64,000 nt of DNA from contig AUJT01000005.1 of NCBI GenBank assembly GCA_000424365.1, positions 62,001 to 126,000 on the forward strand, written 5' to 3'. Position 1 is the stretch's first letter. The number at the start of each line of letters is the position of its first letter. The translations under genes were made by a program, and so were the position numbers. Source of the stretch: Lachnospiraceae bacterium NK4A144. GTDB lineage: Bacteria > Bacillota > Clostridia > Lachnospirales > Lachnospiraceae. Positions 1 through 34,012 of this stretch are shown here, in pieces. A model generated the notes under the pieces. It saw only the letters and a program-made list of their open reading frames with translations. It was not told the origin of the DNA and ran no database searches.

Positions 1-2504
1 ATTGTTTTATCCGTTACTGCATTATCCGATGCTGTTTTATCCTCAGCTTCGCCTCGTCTCAGCGTGAGGTTCAGATCTCCGTTCATGGTACCCTTAAATT
101 CTCCTATCATGTATCCTGAGAAATAACCGTTTACCATACCGTTGAGGACAACTGTTCCGGCAGTTTTCTGAAGTACCGATCCTGCTCCGCCAACCGAGAT
201 CTCCGGTGTCTTTACACTAAAGCTCGTCTTATCAAGGATAGGATCTGCCATGAATAAAAGCTGGGGAAGAACCGTCATTACAAGTACTATACTTGTAAGT
301 GTTCCTCTGCCAAGCACCAGTCCAAGGTTTGCTATAACCGCGTTACTCGTGATATTTGCAATAAGGAAGCCGCATGCTGTGAGGATAGTTCCACTTGTAA
401 GGATAGTCGCAAAGGACTCATTAAGGCTCTGTACTATCGCCTGCTGTCTGTCCGGAACTTCTTTTCTCAGATGCACATATCTGTTTGTGATAACGATCGC
501 ATAGTCAATGGTCGCGCCCATCTGGATAGAACTAACGATCAGATAGGCAAGGAAGTAAAGCGGTGCATTCTGAAGATAAGGGAAGGAGAAGTTGATCCAG
601 ATACTTCCCTGTATAGTTATCAGCAGGATAAGCGGTAAACTTATCGACTGGAAAGTAAAGAGCAGGATCATTCCTACAAAGAACGCTGTCAGTATGCTTA
701 TCAGCAGGTTATCGTGGCTGAAAGATCCTGAAAGGTCATCATTACTCGTTGCATCACCGACCACATAGATCCTTTCCTTATAGTAAGACTGTGCCATTGA
801 ACGGATATCGCGGATCTTTTCATACACTTCCTGTCCTTCAGCCGGTCCTGTAAGCGTAAATACTATTCTGGAATAATTATCACTTTCCAGCTGTTTACGG
901 GCATTCTGTATCTGATCGTGAATATCTGTTATGTCCTGAGACTGCTTGGCGCTAAGATTAAATGCACCGGCTTCTTTTTTATCATAGATAAAGTCGATGA
1001 GATCAATAACAGCCACTCTGTATTCATCGATACCGTCTATAAAAGCACCGTAAATCTCTTTATCCTGCGCATATGCTGTATAAAGAAGCTTTGCAAGTCC
1101 CGCGTCAACCTTTGCAACTTCCGCAAATTCTCTGGGATTTAAGTCATCAGTCAGGACATATTCCTTTTCATCACCTACATCTACATTTGCGAGAGCCAAT
1201 ATATCATCTACATAATCCCTGCTTTTCAGATTAGCGATGATCTCCGCCTCTGTCGCATAATCTCCCTTAGGAAGGACTATCGCTACATTCGTTCCCGTCT
1301 CAAAGGTCTGATCTATGCGTTCCTTTGCAGCTATAAAATCCGTCATTTTAGGACCGCGCGCAGTGTTTTTATCAAAGATATACGGACAGTTCTGTGAGAA
1401 ACGGAATGCAAAAACAAGTGTTACTATAAATAACAGAGGCAGTATATATCTCGTTTTATAGATAAATTTTCCCCAATAATTGATCTGTGGAACAAAGCTC
1501 TTGTGGCGCGTCTTATCTATCATATCCCTAAAGGTCATGATGAGTCCCGGCATAAACAGGAATACCGTGATCATTGAAAACATGATTGCCTTGCAAAGCA
1601 CCAGACCAAGATCCCGACCTATCTGGAACTTCATAAATACCAGAGCTACCATTCCTGCCATCGTTGTAAGGGAACTGGAAGAAATCTCGACTATCGCCTT
1701 TGAAAGAGCAACCACCATAGCGTCTCTTGGACTCAGTCCATTGTCACGTTCTTCCATATACCGGTGAAACATGATGATCGCGTAGTCGATAGCAAGTGCC
1801 AGCTGAAGGATTATATCAACGGCATTTGAAATATAAGATACTGTGCCAAAAATATAATTCGTACCCTTATTAAGTACAGCTGCCATGGCAAATGTCAGCA
1901 TGAAGATCGGTACTTCGGCATAAGTAGATGATGTAAAGATCAATACCGCAAGAATGACTATAACTGCCATTCCAAGAATTACTTTTACATCGCTTTGAAG
2001 CTCAGCCGACTCGTCGAGATCGACTGTTGTGTAAACATAGTTATCGTAATCTTTTACATAATCCCTGACTTCTGCGATCGCCTTTTGAGAAATATCAGCT
2101 TCCTTACTGTCTTCAAACATTATCGTTATAAGCGCCGCAGAGTCTTTATAGTAATCATCAAGCGTCTTATCGGAATAATCAGTATCATCAGGATCATAGA
2201 ACTTAACAGTATCGACTCCGTCGATTTTCTCCAGTCCCTTAGCCACTGCAAGAGCACGCTCATACGTAATATTTGTGAGAAGAACCTTGGCAGAGCCGTT
2301 TGTCTGGAATTCTGCGTCCATGAGGTCCACGCCCTGTCTCGTCTCCGTATCTACCGGCAGATACTTTGTTACGTCATTTTCCACCGTTACATGACTTATC
2401 ATGACTCCGCAGTATATAGCTGCTATAACAAAGAGCAGCATAAACGCTTTTCGCCTATCTACGATAAACGCGGCAAGCTTATACATAAAGTTTTTTTCTT
2501 CCAT
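1..2504 (-). CDS. MMPL/RND-family transporter (3' end cut by window start)
   Basis: The reading frame is open from an ATG at 2504 to the window edge, over 830 codons. The protein starts MEEKNFMYKLAAF, has a first membrane helix, a soluble loop containing VENDVTKYLP, and then a helix block with the RND-like segment DIILQLALAIDYAIIMFHR. A second loop and helix block contain GATIDYAIVITNRYVHLR. The duplicated loop-plus-helices layout and the conserved 'DYAI' segments are those of MMPL proteins, which export lipids or other hydrophobic molecules using the proton gradient. A GGAGG ribosome site precedes the ATG. It starts 17 bases after the GLUG surface protein and is probably co-transcribed with it under the divergent TetR regulator. 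The substrate is unknown. Confidence 0.9.
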   Translation of the reverse strand, partial: MEEKNFMYKLAAFIVDRRKAFMLLFVIAAIYCGVMISHVTVENDVTKYLPVDTETRQGVDLMDAEFQTNGSAKVLLTNITYERALAVAKGLEKIDGVDTVKFYDPDDTDYSDKTLDDYYKDSAALITIMFEDSKEADISQKAIAEVRDYVKDYDNYVYTTVDLDESAELQSDVKVILGMAVIVILAVLIFTSSTYAEVPIFMLTFAMAAVLNKGTNYIFGTVSYISNAVDIILQLALAIDYAIIMFHRYMEERDNGLSPRDAMVVALSKAIVEISSSSLTTMAGMVALVFMKFQIGRDLGLVLCKAIMFSMITVFLFMPGLIMTFRDMIDKTRHKSFVPQINYWGKFIYKTRYILPLLFIVTLVFAFRFSQNCPYIFDKNTARGPKMTDFIAAKERIDQTFETGTNVAIVLPKGDYATEAEIIANLKSRDYVDDILALANVDVGDEKEYVLTDDLNPREFAEVAKVDAGLAKLLYTAYAQDKEIYGAFIDGIDEYRVAVIDLIDFIYDKKEAGAFNLSAKQSQDITDIHDQIQNARKQLESDNYSRIVFTLTGPAEGQEVYEKIRDIRSMAQSYYKERIYVVGDATSNDDLSGSFSHDNLLISILTAFFVGMILLFTFQSISLPLILLITIQGSIWINFSFPYLQNAPLYFLAYLIVSSIQMGATIDYAIVITNRYVHLRKEVPDRQQAIVQSLNESFATILTSGTILTACGFLIANITSNAVIANLGLVLGRGTLTSIVLVMTVLPQLLFMADPILDKTSFSVKTPEISVGGAGSVLQKTAGTVVLNGMVNGYFSGYMIGEFKGTMNGDLNLTLRRGEAEDKTASDNAVTDKT

Positions 2505-2521
2505 CTGTAAACTCCTCCGGA

Positions 2522-5500
2522 TCACTTAGCCTTTCTGTTCTTTTTCTTAAATATGACTACTAATCCTATCAGTATGACGAGCATTCCTCCGATAATAAAT
2601 AACTGCCACAACCGACTGTTCTTTTTAAGGATCACAAATTCACCGTCACCTTTCATGGCAAATACAATGTAATTTCCATCAACCTTAGAAGGAATAAGTG
2701 ATACTTTATTGTCCTTTACCTCAGCTGCTGCGATGTTATCTCCGTACCCATCCTTAAGAAAACGAAGTACATAATCATCATCACGTGCTCCATACACTCC
2801 ATGCACCGAATACTTGTAAGCACCGGCGATACTGTATCCACGAGGTGCAGGCATATTTACCGAAGTCTCTTCCAAAACCACATCGCTATGATCATAAAAA
2901 TCCCCAGTTATCAAAAGTTTTGGATTTTCCTCTGCCGTCGCGATAGTAGTTACATAATCAACATATATCGCATGAACAGTTGTGTTCTGTTTAATATTAG
3001 TCAGGTCAATATTTTCCCAATATGCAAACCTTCCTTTTTTTCCTTCCGGAACAGGCGGATAAAGCGACTCTCTTATGCTGCCGCCATACTTTACAAAGAA
3101 GGTCTTTATGATCTTTCCTCCATCTGTAAAATCAACCCGCATCTCCCTGAATTCTTCCGGAACTCCGGTTTTATTTATCAGCTCACCATATGTTATAGGT
3201 TTTGCTTCTTTCTCTACTGTACATCCATTTATAGCGCCTGTTTCATTTAAGACAAAGACATTATCCCTGATATCACTCTCAGGGTCTGCTTCGCCTGCTA
3301 CCGCTCCGGTCTTTTCGTTGCTTCCCCCTACATTTGAGAGACATGCAGAACCTGTAAGGACTTTTACATATCCTGCTATTCCGCCAACATTTGTATTTCC
3401 CGAAACCTCACTCATGGAGTATGAATCGCGGATAACATATGCACTCTTACCGGCTATTCCACCAACAAAATTTCCTTCCTCAGAAGAAATCCTGCCGAAA
3501 TTATTTCCGGACAAAACCGCTCCCATTTCTGCACGTCCGACTATTCCACCGGCATAATCATTTCGTACCGATACTTCGCCTCTATTTGTACAGTCAAGGA
3601 TCGTAGCCTTTCTGGTCCTCTCATAATTAAGACTGATCTCACCAGCTGATACAACTTCAAAGTCTGACTGTGTATCGTAGTCATAATCCATGTATCCTAC
3701 GATTCCGCCAACGTTTATGTCCGCATCGATCCGACTGTTATTTATTGATGAATTAAGACTTCCCTTTCCGGGAGTACGATCAGGATCATCTGACACATCA
3801 TCAAAGACATCGTCTATGTCTTCTGTCTGTCTGATCCTTTCAAGTTCATCCTGAACTTCATCAAATCCGTCATTTAAGGTGCTGTTAATAGTCTGCATCT
3901 GACCTGTTATGGTATTTAACTGTCCTCTGACAGACGCATCTGATTCTTTTAGGCCATCAAGCAGCGTATCCATCTGCGTTGCCAGACTATCAGTCTTTCC
4001 CGTAATATCATCATCTGTCGTGCGGATATCTTTTTTGTAGTCATCGATGCAGCCCTTAAGATAATCATCAAGAGCACCGCTCTTATCTCTTATATCAGAA
4101 AGCTGATCTCCAAGTTCTTCTAAATCATCTGTACCTTCTGAAGCTTTTCCAAGTAATGTAGATAAGCTGTCATTTCCCGATGCGAGCATACGAAGAAGTT
4201 TATCCATATAATTGGTCATGTCTACCGTAATGCCGCGTCCTGCTGCTTCCTCCGCAGAATCAAGGAGTTTCTCAAGATCTTCAACATTGTCTTTCAACGC
4301 CTGAAGCGCATTTTTTGTATCATTATCATAGATATCAGGGTCGATCGAATCAATCGTACTTCGGATGCCATCAACCTGCGATCTGATCTCACGCTCTACC
4401 GAGTCATTCTTGCACTGATAATAGGTCTTGTAATCACTCACTGTCTGACGCAGTTCATCCGCAGTTCCTCTGATGGCATCTATATTGTTCTGCGCTTTAT
4501 CGTCTTCTTTTCCGACAGTATTGTGGAGCTTATCCGCCATATCGACGAGATCATCCAGCTGGTCTCCTGCTTTAGAAAATGAATCCTCGGAATATTTATT
4601 CACTACATACGGCTCAAACTGTCCTGCGATACCTCCGACATCTTTTCTTCCGTATACTTCACCGTTATTCACACATCCGGTAAGTATTCCTCTCTCGTAT
4701 CCAACGATACCGCCCGTTTTATAGCCGGTGTGTTTATATCCGACAACACCTCTGTTTTCACATTCCTTTATCACACCGGAGGATGCTCCTGCTATACCTC
4801 CCGTGTAATTAATCTTTAGCTTATCCGATAATTTTTCTTTAATGTCATCATCCTTAAGGTCGATCATGTCCGGATTAAGCTGCGCAAGGCTCTCATTTGT
4901 ATCGTCAAGCTCATCCACCGTATCCGAATCAAAACTTACATGGTCATCACTTCTTGCATCGTCCGTCTCCCACGCCGTCGTTTTCTCAGCATTTATATTT
5001 CCGGAATTAACAGAACTCTCAATGATACCCTCATTAAATCCAGCTATGCCTCCGCTTCTGCGTGTTCCGAGCACTATCGCATCCGAACTGCAGGAAATGA
5101 TCCTTCCTTCTTCCATATTGTGACCGGTTATGCCTCCGACACACTCTGCCCCGAGCACATATCCGGAAAAAGTCACACGATCCAGCACACCGTAGTTCCT
5201 TCCGGCTATGCCACCTATTTCCTTCATTTCGCCTTCGGGAGATAAATTTCCGGACACACAAAGATTTCTGATACACCCTGTCTTTCCAACAGAACGTATC
5301 AGACCTGACTGACTGGCATTTCCGCCGAGTTCAAATCCTTTTATTGTATGACCCTGCCCATCAAAAACTCCGGAAAAAATCGACACAGGCTTAAATTTTG
5401 TCCCACTTAGGTCGATATCATTCGTGAGGACATAATATTTTCCCTGAGTCTCTGATTCATCGGAACTCTTCTCTGAAAGAGCAATGAGGTCTTCTGCACT

Positions 5501-5659
5501 GGTAATCTCTATAGCATTACCTGACAATTCGTTTTTTTCTTCTACTGCTTTTGCCGGCTGTTCCGCTGCCTCTGCATGATTTACCGGTATTCCGGTAAAG
5601 ATCAGTGCCGCAGAAAGTATTAGAGCCGCAAAAGTTTGGTCATATTTTCTCTTTTTCAT
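2522..5659 (-). CDS. GLUG-repeat, coiled-coil surface protein with C-terminal membrane anchor
   Basis: About 1045 residues. A signal peptide (MKKRKYDQTFAALILSAALI, cleavage likely after AEA) is followed by repeats of the GLUG type (GGIAGRN, GGITGHN, GGIVGYE, GGIAGQF). A central acidic coiled-coil region of about 280 residues follows, then a second set of GLUG repeats. Next is an InlB-like segment (KTFFVKYGGSIRESL), then a beta-rich part, one membrane helix and the basic tail KKKNRKAK. Met7 of the longest frame was chosen because the first six codons overlap a strong -10 box. The protein is predicted to be membrane-anchored and exposed. Downstream is an MMPL transporter, so it may be an extracytoplasmic partner of it. 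GLUG domains have no agreed molecular function. Confidence 0.8.
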   Translation of the reverse strand: MKKRKYDQTFAALILSAALIFTGIPVNHAEAAEQPAKAVEEKNELSGNAIEITSAEDLIALSEKSSDESETQGKYYVLTNDIDLSGTKFKPVSIFSGVFDGQGHTIKGFELGGNASQSGLIRSVGKTGCIRNLCVSGNLSPEGEMKEIGGIAGRNYGVLDRVTFSGYVLGAECVGGITGHNMEEGRIISCSSDAIVLGTRRSGGIAGFNEGIIESSVNSGNINAEKTTAWETDDARSDDHVSFDSDTVDELDDTNESLAQLNPDMIDLKDDDIKEKLSDKLKINYTGGIAGASSGVIKECENRGVVGYKHTGYKTGGIVGYERGILTGCVNNGEVYGRKDVGGIAGQFEPYVVNKYSEDSFSKAGDQLDDLVDMADKLHNTVGKEDDKAQNNIDAIRGTADELRQTVSDYKTYYQCKNDSVEREIRSQVDGIRSTIDSIDPDIYDNDTKNALQALKDNVEDLEKLLDSAEEAAGRGITVDMTNYMDKLLRMLASGNDSLSTLLGKASEGTDDLEELGDQLSDIRDKSGALDDYLKGCIDDYKKDIRTTDDDITGKTDSLATQMDTLLDGLKESDASVRGQLNTITGQMQTINSTLNDGFDEVQDELERIRQTEDIDDVFDDVSDDPDRTPGKGSLNSSINNSRIDADINVGGIVGYMDYDYDTQSDFEVVSAGEISLNYERTRKATILDCTNRGEVSVRNDYAGGIVGRAEMGAVLSGNNFGRISSEEGNFVGGIAGKSAYVIRDSYSMSEVSGNTNVGGIAGYVKVLTGSACLSNVGGSNEKTGAVAGEADPESDIRDNVFVLNETGAINGCTVEKEAKPITYGELINKTGVPEEFREMRVDFTDGGKIIKTFFVKYGGSIRESLYPPVPEGKKGRFAYWENIDLTNIKQNTTVHAIYVDYVTTIATAEENPKLLITGDFYDHSDVVLEETSVNMPAPRGYSIAGAYKYSVHGVYGARDDDYVLRFLKDGYGDNIAAAEVKDNKVSLIPSKVDGNYIVFAMKGDGEFVILKKNSRLWQLFIIGGMLVILIGLVVIFKKKNRKAK

Positions 5660-5665
5660 AATCTC

Positions 5666-5693
5666 ATTATACAACATCGTGATTTTTATTCAA
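5666..5693 (-). promoter_or_regulatory. Sigma-A promoter of the GLUG-MMPL operon
   Basis: On the minus strand TTGAAT (5688-5693) and TATAAT (5666-5671) are separated by 16 bases. The predicted start of transcription falls at about 5659, at the first base of the preferred ATG. The -35 box overlaps the inverted repeat at 5690-5704. Confidence 0.7.
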
Positions 5694-5704
5694 CAGTGTG
5701 TTGA
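5690..5704. promoter_or_regulatory. Candidate TetR operator
   Basis: Inverted repeat TCAACAgtgTGTTGA with perfect 6-bp arms. It overlaps the -35 boxes of both divergent promoters, so one bound dimer could block both. Assignment to the adjacent TetR protein is inferred from position only. Confidence 0.6.
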
Positions 5705-5729
5705 TTTACCAACCGAGATGTATTATAAT
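5701..5729 (+). promoter_or_regulatory. Sigma-A promoter of the tetR-type gene
   Basis: TTGATT (5701-5706), 17-base spacer, TATAAT (5724-5729). The transcript would have an untranslated leader of about 60 bases before the ATG at 5796. Confidence 0.7.
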
Positions 5730-5795
5730 GTCATTCGGACAGGATAGCAATAGTCCTGCGGAAATTTTTTAAATAAATACTTAGGGTGATAGTTT

Positions 5796-6377
5796 ATGAG
5801 AATGTCTGAAGTAAAAATGGATCGGCGTATCCGCAAAACGAAGAGTCTTCTGTGGCACGGCCTTGCCTCACTGATGATGGAAAGAGATATTCAGGATATT
5901 TCTGTCAAGAGACTGACAGAGTATGTAGACCTGAATCGAAGCACCTTCTATATCCATTACAAGGATATAAATCAGCTGCTTGATTCCATTGAAAATGAAC
6001 TGATGGAAGAATTTCGCGAGATCATTTCTCACAACATAGATATTTCAAATCTCTACGAGTCTAATCTGCAGCTTTTGCACGACCTGTACAGAGATCTCCT
6101 GCAAAACCGCGAGATCATAAGTGCTCTGCTTGGTCCTCACGGAGATTTTCAGTTTATCAAAAAATTAAAACAGATCCTTACGGAAAGAATTGAAGAAATC
6201 GGAAAAGCTCTGAATTTTTCCGAAGAAGTTCTGACCTACTATTCCGCCTTTTGCTTTACCGGCTGTGTAGGTATCATACAGCAATGGATAGAAACGGATT
6301 TTGAACAGAGTCCGGAACACATCGCAGATATCACCAACCGCTTCATGATTCACGGAATGGACTCGATACTTCATTAA
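5796..6377 (+). CDS. TetR/AcrR-family transcriptional regulator
   Basis: 193 residues. The N-terminal helix-turn-helix is typical of TetR proteins (RIRKTKSLLWHGLASLM ... ISVKRLTEYVDLNRSTFYIHY). The C-terminal helical ligand-binding and dimer domain resembles the type common in Firmicutes. An AGGGTGA ribosome site lies 8 bases before the ATG. The gene is transcribed away from the GLUG-MMPL operon and is expected to repress that operon and itself through the inverted repeat at 5690-5704. The inducer is unknown, but an exported substrate of the MMPL pump is the usual pattern. The gene ends about 25 bases before an inserted MITE-like element. Confidence 0.9.
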   Translation: MRMSEVKMDRRIRKTKSLLWHGLASLMMERDIQDISVKRLTEYVDLNRSTFYIHYKDINQLLDSIENELMEEFREIISHNIDISNLYESNLQLLHDLYRDLLQNREIISALLGPHGDFQFIKKLKQILTERIEEIGKALNFSEEVLTYYSAFCFTGCVGIIQQWIETDFEQSPEHIADITNRFMIHGMDSILH

Positions 6378-6393
6378 ATAAACATTCAAAAAA

Positions 6394-6555
6394 GGGAACC
6401 GGTTACTGTTCACTCGCTTCCAGCTCGCTCACGTAACGGATTTTGCCAATTAAATCGCCTCCGGCGATGGGCAAAATCCAATGGCTTTTCATCTTTCTTG
6501 GTCGTAAACTCCGCAGCGTAGTGCTCCGTTTACGTGCGAACTGTTAAGGGAACCG
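6394..6555. repeat. Target-site duplication GGGAACCG flanking MITE copy 1
   Basis: The 8-bp sequence GGGAACCG occurs at 6394-6401 and again at 6548-6555, directly on either side of the element at 6402-6547. This is the footprint of a transposition event. Confidence 0.75.
6402..6547. mobile_element. MITE-like palindromic element, copy 1 (146 bp)
   Basis: No coding capacity. The left end GTTACTGTTCAC is an imperfect inverted match of the right end GCGAACTGTTAA. Inside is a strong stem (GGATTTTGCC ... GGCAAAATCC enclosing CGCC/GGCG) and a second stem (GTAAAC ... GTTTAC). Most of the sequence recurs at 33804-34004. The 8-bp direct repeats on its flanks identify it as a non-autonomous mobile element. 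No transposase gene is in the window. Confidence 0.75.
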
Positions 6556-6603: not shown

Positions 6604-7290
6604 TTACTCAGCTGTTTCCGCTGTTGTTTCTTCGGAACTGCTGTCTTCTGTATCCTCTGTACTCTGTTCATCAGGTTTTCCCGGTGCCTTATTATCATCT
6701 ATTGAAATCGAAACAACTTCATTGTCATCGTTATATGTGATAACTACCATTGTTTCCTCTTCAAGGTCTTCTGCTGAACAATCCTTATATTCTGTAGAAC
6801 TTGTGAGTATCAGTTCAAGAGTTTCTCCAGACGGTGCCTCTCCGCCCTTCTGATCTTGACCGCCGCCGGGCTGTCCACCCCTGCCGCCTTTACCGCCTTC
6901 CGGTGCTTTTCCACCGGATGTCTCCCCTGACGGCGCTTCTCCGGATGGTGCCTCACCTGATGGTGCCTCACCTGACGGCGCTTCTCCATTTCCGCCGGCT
7001 CCCGGGCCGCCCTTACCACCCATATTTGCAAAAGCCTCTACTGTCAGTTTCTCACCATCTATCGATGTAATCTTCGCGTGTACTTCGGTTCCTTCAGCAT
7101 TTTCTTCCGACATAGCCGTGCTTGGCTCATCCGTAGGTGCAGGTGCGTCAGACGGCGCCTCTGCAGTCGTCTCTGCCGGTGTTTCCGCTGCTGCAAAAGA
7201 ACTTCCGCATCCTGTCACAGAAAGAGAAAGCACTGCCGCTGCAATTATCGCTGCAACTCTTTTACAAACCTTCTGATTTCTTCTTTTCAT
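6604..7290 (-). CDS. Gly/Pro/Glu-rich lipoprotein of unknown function
   Basis: 228 residues from the ATG at 7290, chosen for its GAGAGGATG ribosome site; the longer frame has none. A signal peptide ends in the lipobox LSVTGC, so the protein is probably lipid-anchored on the outer face of the membrane. An acidic Thr/Ala/Pro-rich stretch leads to a short motif (KITSIDGEKLTVEAF), a Gly-rich region with four tandem GEAPS units, and a segment ELILTSSTEYKDCS that resembles the end of a small beta domain. The tail is Ser/Thr/Glu-rich. The two beta segments around the Gly-rich insert could form one fold. No family was recognised. Confidence 0.75.
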   Translation of the reverse strand: MKRRNQKVCKRVAAIIAAAVLSLSVTGCGSSFAAAETPAETTAEAPSDAPAPTDEPSTAMSEENAEGTEVHAKITSIDGEKLTVEAFANMGGKGGPGAGGNGEAPSGEAPSGEAPSGEAPSGETSGGKAPEGGKGGRGGQPGGGQDQKGGEAPSGETLELILTSSTEYKDCSAEDLEEETMVVITYNDDNEVVSISIDDNKAPGKPDEQSTEDTEDSSSEETTAETAE

Positions 7291-33795: not shown

Positions 33796-34012
33796 TTTAT
33801 TCTGTTACTGTTCACTCGCTTACAGCTCGCTCACGTAACGGATTTTGCCAATTAAATCGCCTTCGGCGATGGACAAAATCCAGTGGCTATTCATCGTTAT
33901 TGATCGTAAACAGCTCACGCATACACTCTCACTAAGCTCACATGCGTTCGCTAAGTGTTCGTAGCATCCGCAGCGTAGTGCTCCGTTTACGTGTGAACTG
34001 TTACTTTATTCT
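33796..34012. repeat. Target-site duplication TTTATTCT flanking MITE copy 2
   Basis: TTTATTCT at 33796-33803 and again at 34005-34012, directly around the element. The right copy includes the stop codon of glmS. Confidence 0.7.
33804..34004. mobile_element. MITE-like palindromic element, copy 2 (201 bp)
   Basis: Ends GTTACTGTTCAC and GTGAACTGTTAC are inverted repeats with 10 of 12 positions matching. The first ~105 and last ~35 bases are nearly the same as the element at 6402-6547; about 55 extra bases sit between the two conserved parts. It has the same internal stem (GGATTTTGCC ...). No gene inside; flanked by 8-bp direct repeats. Confidence 0.75.

Follow-up and report, generated by a model that had tools for sequence, protein, structure and literature searches.

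A predicted bidirectional promoter with a shared -10 element and an operator-like palindrome between a TetR-family repressor gene and a divergent MMPL pump operon in Lachnospiraceae bacterium NK4A144

Organization of the locus

The DNA analysed is a stretch of 64,000 nucleotides from Lachnospiraceae bacterium NK4A144, referred to as the window. Near its left end, a leftward operon and a rightward gene for a TetR-family repressor are separated by an intergenic region with the following features (window positions):

1-2525, minus strand: second gene of the leftward operon, MMPL-family RND pump, cut by the left end of the window
2522-5659, minus strand: first gene of the leftward operon, exported protein of 1045 aa
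5660-5795: intergenic region
5666-5693, minus strand: TTGAAT-16-TATAAT, the leftward promoter of the original prediction (-35 at 5693-5688, -10 at 5671-5666)
5671-5685: possible weak second operator, ACAACA-tcg-TGATTT, 19 bp from the main palindrome
5690-5704: operator-like 15-bp palindrome, TCAACA-gtg-TGTTGA, an exact match whose core is kept in relatives
5701-5706, plus strand: -35 of the tetR promoter, TTGATT, with its first four bases inside the right arm of the palindrome
5722-5727, minus strand: -10 of the conserved leftward promoter, TATAAT, with bases common to the tetR -10 (plus strand ATTATAAT)
5724-5729, plus strand: -10 of the tetR promoter, TATAAT, 17 bp spacer
5745-5750, minus strand: -35 of the conserved leftward promoter, TTGCTA (plus strand TAGCAA), 17 bp spacer
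5796-6377, plus strand: TetR-family repressor gene, 193 aa (PF14278, TetR_C_8)

The repressor belongs to the TetR family, TetR_C_8 type, with an HTH and a C-terminal domain. It matched the Pfam model PF14278 (TetR_C_8) with an E-value of 5.3e-19, above the family cut-off, and a profile search retrieved solved TetR structures (e.g., 4mk6 at 1.5e-21); the score of PF00440 (TetR_N) was 18.9 bits, under the cut-off of 24. Regarding the first gene of the divergent operon, the translation has an apparent signal peptide, G-rich repeats, which we take to be similar to GLUG motifs, a coiled-coil stretch and a C-terminal membrane anchor, and blastp matches to it lie beside the tetR genes of near relatives. 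A Pfam match to GLUG was not obtained for this protein, and its five Pfam matches in all were each under their cut-offs. The second leftward gene carries the MMPL domain in two stretches (PF03176, 1.8e-47); the HAE3 model TIGR00921 reached 7.2e-37, yet stayed under the family cut-off. The original prediction spoke of pump and regulator being silenced together; the gene adjacent to the minus promoter encodes the exported coiled-coil protein, and the MMPL pump comes second.

Relatives and data sets

TetR relatives from the genus and the order were obtained from 27 of 61 genomes (E-value up to 0.001), 11 of 48 genomes (1e-25) and 121 of 392 genomes (1e-25), and from named contigs, which yielded 11 loci out of 33 matched stretches. 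Dropping relatives with more than 80% TetR identity to a better-scoring one reduced 122 loci to a non-redundant set of 69, and the same cut reduced the set with wider flanks, used for the association with divergent genes, from 87 to 68 loci. A smaller set for the operator core was cut at more than 85% identity (82 reduced to 46). Loci without the anchoring promoter pattern were left out (24 or 23 of 69, with 45 or 46 kept); the stricter comparison with control sites left out 33 of 69 and kept 36, and the operator matrix left out 10 of 46 rows, so that 36 loci were scored.

Promoter elements and their conservation

A promoter scan of the region gave three promoter-like sites, each scoring 10 of 12, against 1.7 expected in shuffles, a number which is weak taken alone. 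Two of them, TTGATT-17-TATAAT on the plus strand and TTGAAT-16-TATAAT on the minus strand, had been named in the original prediction and were present where it had put them, as was the 15-bp inverted repeat TCAACAGTGTGTTGA at 5690-5704, which overlaps both of the -35 boxes reported there. The third site, TTGCTA-17-TATAAT on the minus strand (5750-5722), had not been named. Together with the tetR promoter it makes ATTATAAT at 5722-5729 read as a -10 element on both strands, the hallmark of a bidirectional promoter.

Among the 69 non-redundant relatives, the rightward pattern TTGA[TC]-N18-TATA[ACG]T occurred upstream of 35 tetR genes (0.17 in shuffles). The strict signature of the shared promoter, ATTATA[ACG]T-N18-CAA, was found in 34 of the 69 upstream regions (60 shuffles: mean 0.13, maximum 1), a descriptive count and not an independent test, since the signature was discovered by viewing the sequences in which it was later counted. 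The rightward pattern, the shared -10 and the CAA occurred together in 21 of 69 relatives and in none of the shuffles. Both the symmetry and the two -35 elements are thus kept beyond chance.

Two positions outside the rightward promoter contribute to this signal. An A two bases before the tetR TATAAT, which supplies the last T of the leftward -10, was present in 41 of the 46 anchored relatives; in the stricter comparison it was present at 31 of 36 tetR loci, against 10 of 37 control promoter-like sites away from tetR. The triplet CAA followed exactly 18 nt after the tetR -10 in 29 of the 46 relatives anchored on the rightward promoter alone, and at 22 of 36 tetR loci against 0 of 37 control sites. 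At other offsets from +8 to +31 it was seen in 0-3 of 46, except for +25 (14 of 46), where the triplet is part of the same motif, CAATAATCA. On the opposite strand, the conserved A becomes the final T of a -10 TATAAT, and the CAA becomes the TTG of a -35 separated from it by 17 bp.

A scan of 196 genomes with TATAMT-N18-CAATARTCA gave 32 sites, against 18 for the reversed control (rows summed). A role as a general promoter element was rejected: 7 of the 30 examined sites precede a TetR gene of this family, and most of the others look coding or unrelated.

The operator-like palindrome

When two mismatches were allowed, the palindrome pattern matched twice in the window (4.08 expected). Chance is possible for a single sequence with such a count, and conservation must therefore decide. 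The core ACANNNTGTTGA (ACA-N3-TGTTGA) was found upstream of 14 of the 69 non-redundant TetR relatives, against 0.25 in shuffles, and in 14 of 46 upstream regions of the smaller set, against 0.11 in shuffles; the exact core was absent from 55 of the 69. Joined to the -35/-10 pair, ACA/ATA-N3-TGTTGA occurred in 12 of 69 relatives and 0 times in shuffles. In aligned relatives with 45-48% TetR identity the palindrome stands in the same register to the tetR -35. The original prediction had called for the same palindrome before homologous genes, and these counts bear out a shared operator-like site beside the TetR gene. Because relatives keep its core, the palindrome is more than a chance repeat, and its identification as the autoregulatory operator of TetR is a well-supported prediction from sequence comparison.

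The two arms differ in constancy. The left arm TCAACA was seen in 8 of the 46 anchored relatives, in other families as well as in the near clade, and the remaining left arms read TAGATA, TATACA, TAGACA, CCAACA, TAAACA or others; a perfect 6-bp palindrome occurred in 3 of 46 (the window, L091 and L234). The more constant half is thus the right arm, where the palindrome coincides with the -35, and the promoter accounts for part of the conservation of this arm.

Three exact palindrome sites exist in the genome of the strain itself, one of them being the site at tetR. The other two exact TCAACA-N3-TGTTGA sites (contig C21, 28593-28607 and 28632-28646; locus L046, 5994-6047) are 39 bp apart and sit in short reading frames of an apparently broken gene. 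With one mismatch allowed, 18 sites were found in the same genome, against 6 for the reversed control pattern, and TGTTGATT-N17-TATAAT occurs at one other exact place (contig C1, 423893). A wider regulon in this genome was considered and rejected, as exact sites elsewhere are limited to the C21 pair in the broken reading frame.

The possible second operator at 5671-5685 scored 5.3 bits with the operator matrix, against 17.7 bits for the main palindrome. At the corresponding offset of -19, 4 of 36 loci exceeded 4 bits, against 0.22 per offset on average; the z value was 5.5, with higher values at +57 and +3 and several others between 4 and 5 (AT-rich DNA). A tandem operator array with a 19-bp period was set aside as possible only, given that the mean score at offset -19 does not stand out.

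A genome scan with ACANNNTGTTGA-N19-TATAMT yielded 32 sites, against 4 for the reversed controls (rows summed), and at least 5 of the 32 (two of them overlapping) lie at TetR genes of this family. In four genomes of another genus (loci L141, L156, L157 and L144), ACA-N3-TGTTGA-N19-TATAAT recurs in the near-identical sequence ACAATRTGTTGACAAAYACARAAGAAATGGATATAAT.

Association with divergent neighbours

Of the 68 non-redundant loci in the association set, 60 have a divergent neighbour, and the strict signature was present at 33 of these; among the 8 loci without such a neighbour it was present at none (P=0.005, a value that overstates the evidence, since the loci are related by descent). If the divergent neighbour was required to lie within less than 450 nt, the numbers were 32 of 59 and 1 of 9 (P=0.028, to be read in the same way); the sole signature locus outside this limit was L101, which has a divergent gene at 456 nt. 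The association is confounded by clade and includes only 8 non-divergent loci. Conversely, 27 of the 60 divergent loci lack the strict signature. L076 and L074 are divergent loci.

In the near clade (the window, MC2017, L088-L094 and L127) the leftward operon next to tetR retains both the exported protein and the MMPL pump. Where the fetched sequence extends beyond the pump, another exported protein of the same type comes next, with 42-46% identity to the first exported protein of the window. At L088, L091, L093, L094 and L127 the order is exported coiled-coil/repeat protein, MMPL pump and second such protein, the first two of which are present in the window. It is possible that the coiled-coil/repeat proteins form a partner system of the MMPL pump in this clade. 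In other genera the neighbour of tetR is often another exporter; MMPL/RND proteins were recognized by blastp to the pump of the window, and the five neighbours that were scanned are ABC2_membrane_3 proteins, three of the five also with DUF3533, presumably of the YhgE/Pip type.

Proposed regulation and alternative readings

The promoter sequences, the shared -10, the palindrome with its register and the divergent exporter are established as features of the sequence. From these we infer binding of TetR at the palindrome, activity of both promoters, their start sites and competition between polymerases. The reading that we favour, and consider probable, is that the intergenic region acts as a bidirectional promoter with a symmetric shared -10 and that a TetR dimer on the palindrome represses both directions. 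ATTATAAT at 5722-5729 would then serve two mutually exclusive binding modes of RNA polymerase. The rightward mode would use the -35 TTGATT (5701-5706) and produce the tetR mRNA from about 5736, and the leftward mode would use the TTG of the -35 at 5750-5748, with transcription of the exporter operon beginning at about 5715. Bound at 5690-5704, a TetR dimer would cover the tetR -35 and also occupy the leftward transcription unit from about +12 to +26, which would let one dimer block both; the earlier idea of a single dimer covering both directions is upheld in this form, the operator-like palindrome being kept in register with the tetR -35. A ligand would remove the dimer and allow the exporter and tetR to be made, with strong transcription one way limiting the other.

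Against this reading, TTGCTA is a modest -35, and the predicted separation of the start sites, 21 bp, is not among the distances of 18, 10 and 23 named as common for E. coli bidirectional promoters in the available portion of PMC12825309, where small variations are allowed. Moreover, the CAA is embedded in the longer conserved stretch CAATAATCA, which the -35 alone leaves unexplained, and part of this stretch may therefore be a protein site. In an alternative reading, the CAATAATCA element would not be a -35 at all but a second DNA site for TetR or another protein, acting at a fixed distance by repression or looping. The element indeed reaches past the TTG (CAA-Y-AA-T-CA), it reads AATCAACA, the mirror of TGTTGATT, at L091 and L059, and its distance to the operator's left arm is 57 bp, an offset whose mean operator score is second only to that of the main site (z 7.3). 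In absolute terms the matrix score at +57 is poor, averaging -5.2 bits with none of the 36 loci above 4, the spacing of the element fits a 17-bp promoter spacer to the leftward -10 exactly, and the A at -2, needed by the leftward -10 only, is conserved together with the element; a site that wholly replaces the -35 appears unlikely. Much further down the scale stands a chance inverted repeat, with TetR binding elsewhere or regulating other genes. The failure of the palindrome pattern to exceed shuffles in the window alone would agree with it, but the core and register are conserved in diverged relatives, and this explanation is highly improbable.

In the arrangement first proposed, the two promoters stand back to back, each with a -10 box of its own (leftward 5671-5666, rightward 5724-5729), and their -35 boxes have the palindrome in common. 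Both of these promoters score 10 of 12, like the third, and the segment that runs from the leftward -10 through the palindrome hardly differs between the window and the close genome G066, whose coding flanks differ more. The left-arm CAA that its leftward -35 needs is nevertheless present in only 12 of the 46 anchored non-redundant relatives, and a -10 with 5 or 6 matches at 15-18 bp occurs in the window row alone, the other 11 reaching at most 4 of 6; the leftward promoter of such a Tn10-like layout, with its -35 in the left arm and a -10 of its own, was found in a single row of the 46. In the majority of distant relatives the left arm reads TAGACA, TAGATA, TATACA or another sequence that contains no TTG. 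The A of the ATG (5659-5657) is the seventh base past this -10, which ends at 5666, 6 nt before the start codon at 5659, and the message would therefore be leaderless. The absence of a clear Shine-Dalgarno site at the first gene would be in keeping with a leaderless message that begins at 5659; leaderless transcription is reported, in the part of PMC5171806 available, to be much rarer in C. phytofermentans than in other bacteria. TTGAAT-16-TATAAT also exists in the close genomes G009, G030 and G066, which had been dropped from the non-redundant set, and was seen only in these and the window. We consider back-to-back promoters rather unlikely as the working arrangement. Overlapping divergent promoters, as first proposed, are retained; the minus promoter named for them is doubtful and is not the widely conserved one, although it could be a genuine additional promoter in the near clade.

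As an extension of the bidirectional reading, we suggest tentatively, and with less than even confidence, that promoter symmetry itself is under selection in this TetR lineage, so that exclusion between polymerases would be part of the regulatory design and not a by-product. Many genera would on this view have maintained the shared -10, the two -35 boxes and the operator over one of them next to divergent exporters, and a second, different protein site may additionally be present in the leftward -35 region.

Comparison with known systems

In the Tn10 tetR-tetA region, too, the promoters of a TetR repressor and of an exporter diverge and overlap, under the control of palindromic operators; it carries two strong operators and separate promoter boxes, whereas one strong operator-like site and a shared -10 were seen here. 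Regarding bidirectional promoters in general, whose description is recent, Warman et al. reportedly described in Nat Microbiol in 2021 a symmetric -10 read on both strands; in the present case both -35 elements and the symmetry are, in addition, conserved across many species with divergent genes.

The arrangement proposed here, in which a bidirectional promoter serves a TetR autorepressor and a divergent RND pump, is of a known kind, represented by E. coli PacrA/acrR. According to the accessible text of Warman et al. (2026, NAR, PMC12825309), the control of bidirectional promoters was unknown and had hardly been studied before, and competition between the directions of PacrA/acrR was shown when one direction is activated. 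As far as that text goes, the two systems are alike in that an RND efflux operon diverges from the gene of a TetR-family autorepressor, a single -10 is common to both directions, and a repressor site, which is a prediction in our case, lies on the promoter. They differ in that the present locus, from a Lachnospiraceae-related genome, has an MMPL-type pump with an exported coiled-coil partner, an operator-like site on the tetR -35, no known activator site and a predicted start-site separation of 21 bp, and in that the arrangement is conserved beside divergent exporters of several types. For TetR genes of another clostridial species, C. phytofermentans, conserved palindromes have likewise been described, in that case at start sites that were mapped (PMC5171806); a shared promoter is not reported in the portion of that article at hand. 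A study of this operon was not among the matches listed in one open literature library, which is not proof of absence.

What the comparative data would add is the maintenance of the symmetry and of both -35 boxes across many genera, in this sample only at loci with a divergent gene. A collection of diverged yet alignable loci, in which a repressor gene and an operator at constant register are found each time and an exporter frequently, would allow a comparative test of whether the symmetry is selected; it also offers a compact natural setting in which repressor action and polymerase competition are combined. In annotation terms, the likely start site of the exporter transcript moves from about 5659 to about 5715.

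Additional observations

At 6604-7290 of the window a leftward gene encodes a lipoprotein-like protein with a repeated PSGEA-type segment, for which no Pfam match up to an E-value of 0.01 was found. A dispersed repeat of 145 bp lies at 6402-6546, immediately 3' of tetR. Including this copy, it has at least 40 matches (probably more) in the genome of the strain, with 94-100% identity; a second copy in the window (33804-33911 with 33956-34003) looks interrupted. Among the loci fetched from other genomes, the repeat was found in G066 only, 77% identical and elsewhere in the locus. It folds strongly, with -40.6 and -46.0 kcal/mol for the two strands (values for the native sequence alone), and is possibly a MITE-like or REP-like element.
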